Virus record (IMG/VR): IMGVR_UViG_3300028600_000015
Location: 1-31,156 of that record
Length of the DNA: 31,156 nucleotides
Strand: one strand, 5' to 3'
Origin: a virus
The notes below the pieces were generated by a model that did not search any database, had not been told where the DNA came from, and saw only the letters and a list, made by a program, of their open reading frames with translations. Shown here piece after piece: positions 559-5,639 of the stretch. Position 1 is the stretch's first letter, and every line of letters begins with the position of its first letter. Position numbers and translations under genes: made by a program.

Positions 559-863
559 ATAAACAAGATTTGCTCGATCGTATTGAAATGGATGAAGAAG
601 AATTTATTAAGTGGTCACAAAGTTTTTCTCCTGAATTAATATATTTTTGGGATGATACGCCTTGTTGTTTATACACTGATGGAGATGGAGGTATTGCATT
701 GATACGAGGTTTTTGTGATGTATTTGAGGAGAAAGGATTTCAAATATCTTTCCCAATCCCAACACTTTATTGTGATATTTCTTTTGATGATATGTCTGAC
801 ATCATAGCAAACCTTAAAAAAAATATTAAAACTTATTTAAAAGAACTGGAGGAAACAGAATGA
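555..863 (+). CDS. Hypothetical acidic protein (102 aa)
   Basis: The gene is joined by ATGA overlaps to its neighbours on both sides and preceded by GCGAGGAGCG, a strong Shine-Dalgarno. The product is acidic (about a quarter Asp/Glu) and begins MNKQDLLDRIEMDEEEFIKW. It ends in a charged helix (NLKKNIKTYLKELEETE). Two adjacent cysteines occur in DTPCCLYTDGDGG. I recognise no family. Its place directly before the recombination genes suggests an early accessory role, but that is inference. Confidence 0.65.
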   Translation: MNKQDLLDRIEMDEEEFIKWSQSFSPELIYFWDDTPCCLYTDGDGGIALIRGFCDVFEEKGFQISFPIPTLYCDISFDDMSDIIANLKKNIKTYLKELEETE

Positions 864-1399
864 GTACATGGAAAACATTATCAGCAATAGATTGCAGTAA
901 ACACGTAGAGAAGAAAGGCAACCTGTCTTACCTCTCTTGGGCATGGGCGTGGTCTACTTTGATGGAACACTACCCTGATTCAAGCTACACATACTGTCCT
1001 CCTTCCTTTCTTGAGAATGGTACTTGTGAAGTCAACGTATCGGTCACAGTGAAAGAGAAAACACACTCTATGTGGCTACCAGTTATGGATAATAGGAATA
1101 AAGCTGTGCCTAATCCTACATCCAGAGACATTTCTGATGCTCGTATGCGCTGTTTAGTTAAAGCTATTGCCATGCATGGGCTAGGTGCTTACATCTACGC
1201 AGGGGAAGACTTGCCGCAAGCTGTACAAAATGCTGTACTGTCTGGCGATCAAGCTAAAGAGATCAAAGGGCTACTTGCAGAGCATGGAGTAGATGTTAAA
1301 GTCTTTCTAAAGCACTTCAAAGCAACCTCAGTTGATGAGATGTTAGCTGTACACTACTCTAAAGCTGTGGCGGCACTGAATGCTAAGGCTAAAAAATGA
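860..1399 (+). CDS. Sak3/DUF1071-like single-strand annealing protein
   Basis: This probably anneals complementary single strands during phage recombination, working with the exonuclease encoded next to it. The signature NLSYLSWAWAWSTLM (residues 21-35) is typical of the DUF1071 family, which contains the lactococcal Sak3 annealing proteins. A later segment SDARMRCLVKAIAMHGLGAY also fits the family. At 179 aa it is a single annealing domain with a short tail (AVQNAVLSGDQAKEIKGLLA). It overlaps the upstream gene by ATGA (860-863), and its own stop overlaps the nuclease start by ATGA (1396-1399). The exonuclease-annealase-SSB order is a standard phage recombination cassette. Confidence 0.8.
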   Translation: MSTWKTLSAIDCSKHVEKKGNLSYLSWAWAWSTLMEHYPDSSYTYCPPSFLENGTCEVNVSVTVKEKTHSMWLPVMDNRNKAVPNPTSRDISDARMRCLVKAIAMHGLGAYIYAGEDLPQAVQNAVLSGDQAKEIKGLLAEHGVDVKVFLKHFKATSVDEMLAVHYSKAVAALNAKAKK

Positions 1400-2010
1400 T
1401 CGCCCTAGAGCATATTCAGGGCAGTGATGAGTGGTTTGCCTCAAGATTGGGTAGACCCTCTGCTTCCATGTTTAACAAGCTGATTACCTCCGCAGGGAAG
1501 GCTAGTTCTCAGGCTGATGGGTACATAAATGAGTTGATAGCTGAGAGATTAACTGGTGTTCGTGTTCCTATCTACGTAAATGAGCACATGGAAAGGGGCA
1601 CAAGGCTAGAACCTGATGCCAGAGAGATGTATGAGTTTGTAACTGAGCAAGAAGTCACAGAATATGGGTTTATATTGGACGATTCTGAGGAGTTTGGTTG
1701 CAGTCCAGATGGTATTATTAAAGATAGCGATGGCAATTTTGAGGGAGGGCTAGAGATAAAATGCCCGACTGATTCCAACCTGATAGGCTATCATCGTAAC
1801 AATAAATCGTTTATCAGCAAATACAAACACCAAATTATGGGTTGCATGATGGTTACTGGTGTTAAGTGGTTCGATTTAATGGCGTACTCTGAAACTATAC
1901 CCCACCTTATCGTAAGAGTGGAACGTGATGATGAGTACATAGAGAAGTTGGCGGCTGAAGTACAAAAGGCTGTTGATATTATTGTAAATGAAACGGAGAA
2001 TTTAAAATGA
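1396..2010 (+). CDS. YqaJ-like / lambda exonuclease-type recombination nuclease
   Basis: This is a PD-(D/E)XK nuclease of the YqaJ viral recombinase family, expected to resect double-stranded DNA ends and hand single strands to the adjacent annealing protein. Visible motifs are a helix with ERGTRLEPDA (66-75, conserved Glu), GCSPDG (101-106, Asp105) and the ExK core E120-I-K122 in LEIKCP, followed by KHQIMGCM with Gln146. Length (204 aa) is normal for the family. It is coupled by ATGA to the Sak3-like gene upstream and the SSB-like gene downstream. All core catalytic residues are present, so it should be active. Confidence 0.9.
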   Translation: MIALEHIQGSDEWFASRLGRPSASMFNKLITSAGKASSQADGYINELIAERLTGVRVPIYVNEHMERGTRLEPDAREMYEFVTEQEVTEYGFILDDSEEFGCSPDGIIKDSDGNFEGGLEIKCPTDSNLIGYHRNNKSFISKYKHQIMGCMMVTGVKWFDLMAYSETIPHLIVRVERDDEYIEKLAAEVQKAVDIIVNETENLK

Positions 2011-4083: not shown

Positions 4084-4263
4084 TTAGGATATATAGCAAT
4101 CCTTAACGCATTCATTGCAAAGCCCAGTAGCATATTGATTTAGAGTGCAAACTACTACGTATATATTGGGTATAGGCCAGTATTTGACCTCGTAAATATC
4201 ACTAGCCCAGTTTACCAATTTACCATCGTCTACGGCTTTTTTTACTTGCTCTATTGTTTTCAT
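4084..4263 (-). CDS. Hypothetical protein (59 aa)
   Basis: This is the last gene of the leftward block. The start is ATG 4263, which shares its A with the upstream stop (TAATG) and has GGAGGT 4 nt before it; four extra upstream codons are also open, but their ATG lies inside that ribosome site's gene. The product begins MKTIEQVKKAVDDGKLVNWA and ends NECVKDCYIS, with three cysteines near the C-terminus (CNECVKDC). This could be a metal-binding tail, but no family is recognised. Confidence 0.6.
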   Translation of the reverse strand: MKTIEQVKKAVDDGKLVNWASDIYEVKYWPIPNIYVVVCTLNQYATGLCNECVKDCYIS

Positions 4264-4466
4264 TACAACCTCCATTTGGCGATAGATACCTTCTCACCGA
4301 ATTTATTAGTTACTGTTAACCGTTCTGTCTTTATATCGTGGCCGTCTTGTTTTAACTCACAGATCCTAGCAGGGCATTCTAATATTCCCAACATCTTCCA
4401 AGAGTTCAAGCGCGTCAGTGTATGCCCACGCTCCAAGTAGTCCAATATGCGTTCTTTCTGAGTCAT
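4263..4466 (-). CDS. Small helix-turn-helix protein (HTH_39-like, 67 aa)
   Basis: The sequence MTQKERILDYLERGHTLTRL followed by NSWKMLGILECPARICELKQDGHDI is the typical winged-helix pattern found in many short phage and prophage proteins (HTH_39 type): a first helix, a turn, then a recognition helix in CPARICELK. The C-terminal TERLTVTNKFGEKVSIAKWRL would form the wing strands. A GGAGGG site lies 8 nt upstream, inside the end of the previous gene. It may be a regulator or a DNA-binding accessory; its target is unknown. Confidence 0.72.
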   Translation of the reverse strand: MTQKERILDYLERGHTLTRLNSWKMLGILECPARICELKQDGHDIKTERLTVTNKFGEKVSIAKWRL

Positions 4467-4467
4467 T

Positions 4468-4653
4468 TTAAAACCCTCCTACTATGTACATCTCATAACC
4501 AAAGCCAACAATCACGGCAACGGCTAATCCAGTTATAAACGCCATGAACATATCCATATCATGCCGCTCCTTCTTTTGGCGCTGTATCATCTTATCAATT
4601 AGATACCTGTTGGCCCTATTTTGCACTGCTAGTCTGTCGTTTGTAATTCTCAT
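4468..4653 (-). CDS. Single-pass membrane protein (61 aa)
   Basis: A basic N-terminal half (MRITNDRLAVQNRANRYLID, then KMIQRQKKERHDMD) is followed by one hydrophobic segment at about residues 37-57 (MFMAFITGLAVAVIVGFGYEM). By the positive-inside rule the N-terminus should stay in the cytoplasm. The leader AGGGGTGACAGC before its ATG is the same translation-start element used by three other genes of this block. Function is unknown. Confidence 0.6.
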   Translation of the reverse strand: MRITNDRLAVQNRANRYLIDKMIQRQKKERHDMDMFMAFITGLAVAVIVGFGYEMYIVGGF

Positions 4654-4664
4654 GCTGTCACCCC

Positions 4665-4766
4665 TTAAAGGTTAGTTGATAGAATGTAGATCACCGATCC
4701 AGTCACCCATAAGGCAACCAGATACAGCGAAAGGTTAGATTTGATGAATGCGTTTAAAAGTTTCAT
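4665..4766 (-). CDS. Tiny membrane protein (33 aa)
   Basis: The product is MKLLNAFIKSNLSLYLVALW then VTGSVIYILSTNL: one long hydrophobic helix from about residue 11 to 29. Its ATG overlaps the TGA of the upstream gene (ATGA at 4763-4766) and is preceded by GAGGTGACAGC. It resembles the small phage membrane peptides of lysis or exclusion modules, but no family is recognised. Confidence 0.5.
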   Translation of the reverse strand: MKLLNAFIKSNLSLYLVALWVTGSVIYILSTNL

Positions 4767-4963
4767 GCTGTCACCTCATTTTTTAAAATTAGTTTGCGCT
4801 CTAAATACTCAAAGCCTTTAAAAGATACATTCTCTCGATTACATATCCGCAATAACTCACTAATGCGATCTTTTTGAGTCAATCGTTTTAGCATCTCTTT
4901 GGTTCCATAGAGGCAGTTAAATTCAACCTGTATTCTACCTAATGTAATTGCTGATTCGCTCAT
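4763..4963 (-). CDS. Hypothetical protein (66 aa) ending in EVTA
   Basis: The product begins MSESAITLGRIQVEFNCLYG and looks helical (TKEMLKRLTQKDRISELLRICN). It ends KNEVTA. That C-terminus is encoded by GAG GTG ACA GCA TGA, which at the same time provides the ribosome site and overlapping ATG for the next gene. The start overlaps the stop of the 48-aa gene upstream in the same way. No known domain is recognised. Confidence 0.6.
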   Translation of the reverse strand: MSESAITLGRIQVEFNCLYGTKEMLKRLTQKDRISELLRICNRENVSFKGFEYLERKLILKNEVTA

Positions 4964-5106
4964 GCTGTCACCTCATATTTTTTGTTGCATTTACGGCATA
5001 ACTCATGCCCCGACCTGTAGTGGTATTCGTGATAAGTCATAGTGAAAGGAGCGAAGCAAGCCGCGCATTCTGCACTATACATATTTAATATTGCTTTATA
5101 ATTCAT
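4960..5106 (-). CDS. Small zinc-ribbon-like protein (48 aa) ending in EVTA
   Basis: The product begins MNYKAILNMYSAECAACFAP and contains two CxxC knuckles: C14-A-A-C17 and C37-R-K-C40, separated by 19 residues that include HxYHYRSGHEL. This spacing suits a zinc ribbon or rubredoxin-like knuckle. It ends KKYEVTA and overlaps both neighbours by ATGA. The leader is GAGGTGACGGC, one base different from the block consensus. Likely roles are nucleic-acid or protein binding, with no closer identification possible. Confidence 0.6.
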   Translation of the reverse strand: MNYKAILNMYSAECAACFAPFTMTYHEYHYRSGHELCRKCNKKYEVTA

Positions 5107-5369
5107 GCCGTCACCTCATCAAAGTCAGGGTTGCACTCACTAGCGGACGTTAAGAGCCAGTCTATACGCTGTTGTGGTACTAAAGTATGCTCACAGCCAT
5201 CTAGCCATCGGTTTATGTGCTTAGACGTTGTAACGCTGTATTTCTGCTCAGTTCTAATCAATGAGCCGTCCGTTATTCTAGCGGCTACTGGTGTCTCGTA
5301 GCTAAAGAATACCTGAGCGAATCCTAAGTCCAACTCTGTTTGGTTACTTCCAATCAATCTTAGTTTCAT
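5103..5369 (-). CDS. Phage protein resembling DUF8033 family (88 aa), ending in EVTA
   Basis: The segment FFSYETPVAARITDGSLIRT followed by QKYSVTTSKHINRWLDG fits a small phage family in which a 'FSYxTPVA...YSVTTSxHINxWL' signature is conserved; I believe this is DUF8033, but the family name is from memory. Function of the family is unknown. It ends DFDEVTA, with the stop overlapping the next ATG. AGGAG lies 9-10 nt upstream of the start. It is the first member of the EVTA chain. Confidence 0.68.
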   Translation of the reverse strand: MKLRLIGSNQTELDLGFAQVFFSYETPVAARITDGSLIRTEQKYSVTTSKHINRWLDGCEHTLVPQQRIDWLLTSASECNPDFDEVTA

Positions 5370-5405
5370 CTTGTGTTACTCCTAGTTATGTTATTGGGTC
5401 TTACT

Positions 5406-5421
5406 ACGCCCCTAAAGGCGT
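5406..5421 (-). other. Hairpin between two minus-strand genes
   Basis: ACGCC and GGCGT form a 5-bp stem just after the stop of the 70-aa gene. On the minus strand its 16-nt sequence is the same as the terminator hairpin at 3242-3257 except for one loop base, but it lacks a T-run. It may act as an mRNA 3'-end stabiliser or a decayed terminator. Confidence 0.45.
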
Positions 5422-5426
5422 TTCGA

Positions 5427-5639
5427 CTATACCCCTATAGTCTCATCAGGTAAGTTTAAAAACTTATTAAAATAACCGTGACGCTCACATAGGCGCGATA
5501 CTTCGTTTTTAACTTCTTGCATAAATGCCGTGTTAAAGTCTGCTTTGTCACTGGCGGTAAACATCTTATAGGCATCTCTATAGGTATAAGAATTGTTATA
5601 AATGTAGAGCGCCTCTTCTTTTGCGGTGAAGTCTGTCAT
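5427..5639 (-). CDS. Hypothetical protein (70 aa)
   Basis: GAGGTAATACAAC lies before the ATG, a good ribosome site. The product begins MTDFTAKEEALYIYNNSYTY and reads as a mostly helical, soluble small protein (RDAYKMFTASDKADFNTAFM, then QEVKNEVSRLCERHGYFNKF). Nothing in it matches a family I can name. It lies between a 5'-leader hairpin (5676-5701) and the hairpin at 5406-5421. Confidence 0.6.
   Translation of the reverse strand: MTDFTAKEEALYIYNNSYTYRDAYKMFTASDKADFNTAFMQEVKNEVSRLCERHGYFNKFLNLPDETIGV

Follow-up and report, generated by a model that had tools for sequence, protein, structure and literature searches.

A 15-nt stop/start linker at which relatives of a podovirus-like phage differ by whole genes, and its probable role as a reusable gene joint

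Three small phage proteins that are otherwise dissimilar end in the same four residues, EVTA, which raises the question of whether the protein tail or the DNA encoding it is the conserved object, and what such an object would be for. The proteins are encoded in a virus contig of 31,156 nt, the whole of which was analyzed and is referred to here as the window. It also encodes a head-tail connector and capsid proteins of podovirus type; among the best matches listed, identity of the connector to cultured phages does not exceed ~35%. A run of small genes on its minus strand encodes proteins of 70, 88, 48, 66, 33, 61, 67, and 59 aa (Table 1), and GAGGTGACRGCATGA was found at three of their junctions (88-48, 48-66, and 66-33 aa). 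This linker comprises three elements: a near-perfect Shine-Dalgarno sequence, GAGGTGA, complementary to the 16S rRNA 3' end of bacteria; CAGC as a spacer of 4 nt; and a stop-start overlap, ATGA. Through this overlap, the 88-, 48-, and 66-aa open reading frames, all ending in EVTA, each run into the next start. A pattern scan of the window for linker matches with at most 3 mismatches returned 5, compared to a mean of 0.69 in shuffled sequences, with 0 of 100 shuffles reaching 5; the fifth match (849-863, plus strand) carries 3 mismatches and is at chance level. Sequence and scan thus agree with a preliminary description of this DNA, according to which the repeat is at once gene end, ribosome site, and next ATG at three junctions. 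The same description had placed the leader, without EVTA, before the gene at 4653 and had called the three EVTA products otherwise unlike. Indeed, the GGGG copy located there is out of the EVTA frame, and the 88-, 48-, and 66-aa products have nothing in common beyond the tail and match different families or none. The 88-aa protein shares 46-55% identity with cultured-phage proteins among the matches listed, while no homologues of the 61- and 66-aa proteins were found in cultured phages. PADLOC gave no anti-defence hit.

Table 1. Positions of the linker copies, genes, and further features in the window.
Feature	Positions	Strand	Remarks
Linker copy 1, GAGGTGACGGCATGA	5103..5117	-	88-aa gene end (EVTA, TGA), Shine-Dalgarno sequence, and ATG of 48-aa gene
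Linker copy 2, GAGGTGACAGCATGA	4960..4974	-	Joins 48-aa and 66-aa genes
Linker copy 3, GAGGTGACAGCATGA	4763..4777	-	Joins 66-aa and 33-aa genes
GGGG linker variant, GGGGTGACAGCATGA	4650..4664	-	Past TAA of 33-aa gene; leader of 61-aa gene; without EVTA
Predicted hammerhead ribozyme motif, open stem I	5400..5454	-	5' leader of 88-aa gene, after 70-aa gene; predicted cleavage 5405|5404
Leader AGGAGTAACACAAG	5370..5383	-	Precedes 88-aa gene; similar leaders before first genes of blocks in relatives
88-aa "anchor" gene	5103..5369	-	phrog_5643, function unknown; constant upstream partner in relatives; ends EVTA
48-aa cassette gene	4960..5106	-	CxxC...CxxC, zinc-finger-like, sub-threshold Pfam matches only; ends EVTA
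66-aa cassette gene	4763..4963	-	No family; ends EVTA; tails in relatives EVTA or EVTP among others
33-aa membrane-like cassette gene	4665..4766	-	Started by third linker, ends TAA; other predecessor in L202/L204
61-aa membrane-like gene	4468..4653	-	End of variable block; six different upstream partners among relatives
67-aa winged-helix gene	4263..4466	-	HTH_39; frequent downstream flank
Sak single-strand annealing protein	860..1399	+	PF06378, E 7.8e-45; candidate recombinase
YqaJ-type recombination nuclease	1396..2010	+	PF09588, E 1.3e-22

Relatives were collected by searching IMG/VR with the 88-, 61-, 48-, and 66-aa proteins and one swapped-in gene, resulting in 113 non-redundant loci, the window included. 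Within this set, 109 ATGA linker junctions connect 25 upstream with 29 downstream gene families (43 families in all, from BLAST clustering) in 52 distinct pairs, and the exact 15-mer alone links 23 different gene pairs. At these junctions, the 88-aa family is followed by 8 different partners and the 61-aa family is preceded by 6. Differing next genes were found in relatives whose 88-aa genes share 73-95% DNA identity, and even loci with 97-100% identical 88-aa proteins carry different genes directly after GAGGTGACAGCATGA or a close variant. One locus (L001) represents an empty site, in which the 88-aa gene is followed by a single linker, a 61-aa-type gene, and a winged-helix gene; between the same flanks, the window holds three extra linker-bounded genes (48, 66, and 33 aa). 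When the interval from the 88-aa (or F06) gene to the 61-aa-type gene was compared, it contained no gene in L001 and L050, a single gene in L004/L006 (F00) and L010 (F04), and two genes in L205 (F10-F04), L204 (F17-33aa), L219 (66aa-F09), and L242 (F00-F09), the two-gene sets being preceded by another first gene. The 66-aa and 33-aa genes also have other neighbours elsewhere among the relatives. The differences between relatives are thus whole genes that were gained, lost, or replaced exactly at the linker. The preliminary description had proposed a modular link that permits small genes to be added or swapped, and had suggested looking for gain or loss at these sites; the proposal is supported by this comparison, with replacement observed in addition.

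The ends of homology fall at the same place. When nine loci were aligned at the point where the 88-aa gene ends, 36 pairs had alignable 88-aa genes. Identity drops sharply 3-12 nt past the A of the linker's start codon in 35 of these, and the remaining pair has the next gene in common. Across all loci, 67 unique right ends and 83 unique left ends of homologous segments lie in linkers, compared to 4.4 and 4.6, respectively, when positions were chosen at random (with maxima of 12 and 13 in 1000), which corresponds to an enrichment of ~15- to 18-fold. Homology edges are present at 76 of 109 linkers (70%), counts that are not phylogenetically independent, compared to 98 of 196 other Shine-Dalgarno ATGA junctions (50%) and 316 of 858 other Shine-Dalgarno starts (37%) as controls. 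Linkers are thus enriched for homology edges, yet gene borders are generally enriched as well. Since other junctions also coincide with edges, part of the signal reflects the fact that viable breaks fall between genes.

The linker itself occurs in several versions. In one lineage (L050, L051, and L252-L255), GAGGAAACAGCATGA, which encodes EETA, is found at most junctions, as if linker copies evolved in concert. A sister clade (L015-L062, e.g., L020 and L029) has its own linker, GAGGTGGCATAATG/GAGGTGGCGTGATG and similar sequences, encoding EVA in 74 copies, and these linkers also precede differing genes. Another repeated stop/start junction, GGGGTGGAGTTATGA, giving GVEL or EVEL ends, was observed in L002 and L007.

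A degradation or sorting tail had been offered in the preliminary description as a second possibility, and a search for EVTA endings on further genes had been suggested there. Such endings were found: 53 proteins from 14 unrelated families end in EVTA, as might be expected if a degradation, sorting, or binding tail were under selection at the protein level. However, all of these endings are encoded by linker DNA, with the codons GAG GTN ACR GCA TGA in 53 of 53 cases and no other codon set; Glu is never encoded by GAA, even though GAA accounts for 44% of Glu codons in downstream genes, and exact linker copies are in the EVTA frame in 47 of 47 cases, each followed by A. Furthermore, members of the same families end in EVTQ, EETA, EVTP, or EVIA where the linker differs, some homologues are devoid of any EVTA-like tail (MRME, PKIK, and LVGV), the sister clade ends in EVA from its different linker, and the GGGG copy retains the DNA while losing the tail. 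When tails and codons were compared across relatives, no conservation of EVTA at the protein level independent of the DNA was found. A selected protein tail is therefore unsupported and, in our view, very unlikely. EVTA is what the linker DNA spells in the frame ending at its own TGA. As the tail follows the linker version and only linker DNA encodes EVTA, the DNA joint is the conserved object, and with different genes plugged in exactly there, the shared ending looks like a by-product rather than a signal.

If the DNA is what is conserved, it could be conserved for translation only, the joint being the best coupled start site for the host and maintained by selection on expression, while mosaic edges fall there since only clean gene-to-gene joins survive illegitimate recombination. 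GAGGTGA is indeed an ideal, well-spaced Shine-Dalgarno sequence, and the enrichment of homology edges at other gene junctions points in the same direction. On the other hand, the CAGC spacer, which has no pairing role, is common to 47 of 71 GAGGTGA-N4-ATG sites (A being the next base in all 47), other genes of the window have different leaders, and the frame is that of EVTA throughout the 14 unrelated families, even though a stop would equally be available in the AGG-TGA frame. We regard an explanation by translation only as possible but doubtful; nevertheless, joining at random, with only clean joins retained by selection, is a live partial rival, and selection on translation and recombination at the joint may act jointly. 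Far less credible is an origin of the genes by tandem duplication of one ancestor, with the linker as a remnant: while the head-to-tail arrangement of small genes of similar sizes would fit, the products are dissimilar, match different families or none, and fall into separate BLAST clusters. Assembly chimaeras joined at the short repeat have to be considered as well, since the comparison drew solely on virus contigs from metagenomes or single records, but they are just as improbable, given that the same junctions were found in independent metagenomes (L002/L005, L202/L204, and L252/L253/L254) and that a 15-nt repeat is below the usual assembly k-mer length.

We therefore consider it likely that in these marine phages the 15-nt sequence serves as a reusable joint between genes and combines exchange with coupled translation. 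A gene bearing the joint at both ends could enter, leave, or be replaced with no conflict of reading frames, and would remain linked to its neighbours in translation, with stop-start coupling at the linker presumably allowing ribosomes to pass along the gene chain. The small genes of the block, probably early ones, would then form a variable set downstream of a putative promoter or a predicted hammerhead ribozyme. Exchange would most likely occur via short homology at the joint, perhaps with the aid of two proteins encoded by the phage itself, the Sak annealing protein and the YqaJ nuclease; Sak was found in 3 of 16 related, mostly partial records. Phage recombinases of the Rad52 type can work with homology that is short or diverged, but the minimum reported for Red-beta is 23-27 bp (PMC3945230). 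With 15 nt being below the Red-beta minimum, joining at the linker would be infrequent and would profit from matches in the flanks, such as GATGAGGTGACAGCATGAA. An association test for crossover inside the linker revealed no clear segregation of the linker halves with the upstream or downstream family.

Blocks also appear to be delimited by a joint of another kind. The motif ahead of the 88-aa gene contains the hammerhead core (CUGANGA, GAA, A15.1-U16.1, H17, and three stems), and 13 distinct variants in all were found in the window and related contigs. Their stems I and II carry compensatory changes; their intact cores follow by construction from the search, which required them. No match to the pattern was obtained in shuffled sequence. 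Rfam returned nothing at gathering threshold, hammerheads included, the score being 19.5 compared to the 56.3 bits required for RAGATH-1-hammerhead. The motif lies between many unrelated gene pairs in related contigs and precedes at least 8 unrelated first genes, whose start codons are ~34-50 nt downstream. In most loci, the stop of the upstream gene is located 5-9 nt before the core, while in the window and L051 it lies inside stem II, so that both proteins end in LPDET(I/N)G(V/D). In other relatives, a promoter-like sequence, read by eye, replaces the hammerhead. The hammerhead, a ribozyme by prediction, is thus a second interchangeable joint.

Two further elements were observed in this region. 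The leaders AGGAGTAACACAAGATG (5383-5367, minus strand) and GAGGTAATACAACATG (5652-5637, minus strand) represent a second repeated start-associated family, which is common in related loci. Moreover, between the 40- and 70-aa genes, a strong stem-loop (5717-5665, minus strand; z -4.4, 0 of 200 shuffles) is followed by the leader GAGGTAATACAACATG and may be a third joint type.

Arrangements of this kind are already known. Kroger and Hobom reportedly described the lambda nin region in the title of a 1982 paper as a "chain of interlinked genes". There, too, small genes are joined by overlapping ATGA behind a Shine-Dalgarno sequence, and a reading of the region showed that the unrelated NinB, NinC, NinG, and NinI end in AA or GA via Shine-Dalgarno/...GCATGA junctions. 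The window likewise displays ATGA overlaps, Shine-Dalgarno sequences inside the upstream gene, and junction-encoded common C-termini. However, the junctions of lambda resemble each other only loosely (GGGCTGCATGA, GAAGCTGCATGA, GAGGCCGCATGA, and AAGGCGCATGA), whereas here one 15-mer is identical across 23 pairs, and homology to lambda nin genes was not found, the only hit being that of the 48-aa protein to NinF (E 0.27). In Cluster K mycobacteriophages, 13-bp Start-Associated Sequences (SAS) repeat at the ribosome-binding sites of many unrelated small non-structural genes and sometimes contain the upstream stop, and possible homologous recombination is raised by the authors (PMC3203893). The window linker is similarly repeated, in one orientation, at the ribosome-binding sites of several unrelated non-structural genes, but SAS are located 3-7 bp before the start without an obligatory stop-start overlap, and the passages considered describe neither exchange at SAS nor a shared C-terminus (PMC3203893). 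The SAS 13-mer, GGGATAGGAGCCC, was not found at gene starts of the window, the linker sequence being different.

The PeSL elements of T4-type phages are said to combine an early promoter and a stem-loop between genes. Like the linker, they are short regulatory elements at gene borders that mediate modular shuffling (Arbiol 2010 and Comeau 2014, as cited in PMC4503421). However, the window joint is a coding translation element; at the linkers, neither a promoter-like nor a terminator-like site was found, and neither fits 15 nt of coding sequence. In the lambdoid phage HK620, the conserved sequences are reportedly flanks common to a module, not one joint repeated within a block. Module exchange through recombination at short flanking conserved sequences, as put forward for lambdoid phages (Clark 2001, cited in PMC2327257), is similar in principle, whereas the window has one repeated joint at many junctions of a single block. 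Hammerheads around short gene blocks of changing identity are known from prophages (PMC3088659); while a complete core before such blocks is common to both, it is paired here with the EVTA joint system. Therefore, the kind is known from the lambda nin chain, Cluster K SAS, and T4 PeSL, and what appears new from the sequence comparisons is an unusually uniform joint with direct comparative evidence of exchange.

Phage genomes are mosaics whose joints are usually invisible, and a long-standing question is whether breaks are steered towards gene borders or just survive selection at those places. It becomes directly testable with a 15-nt joint that is almost invariant and recurs at dozens of swaps between close relatives. 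Recurrent short C-termini of small phage proteins can be explained as DNA by-products, and searching for joints provides a handle for finding exchangeable small, possibly host-directed, genes. As a speculative extension, which we put forward with considerable reserve, marine podovirus-like phages might use a two-level plug-in system, in which hammerhead joints separate interchangeable mRNA blocks and 15-nt joints separate interchangeable genes, the latter kept partly as homology arms for Sak and YqaJ. If this were true, selection would act on exchange as well as on expression.
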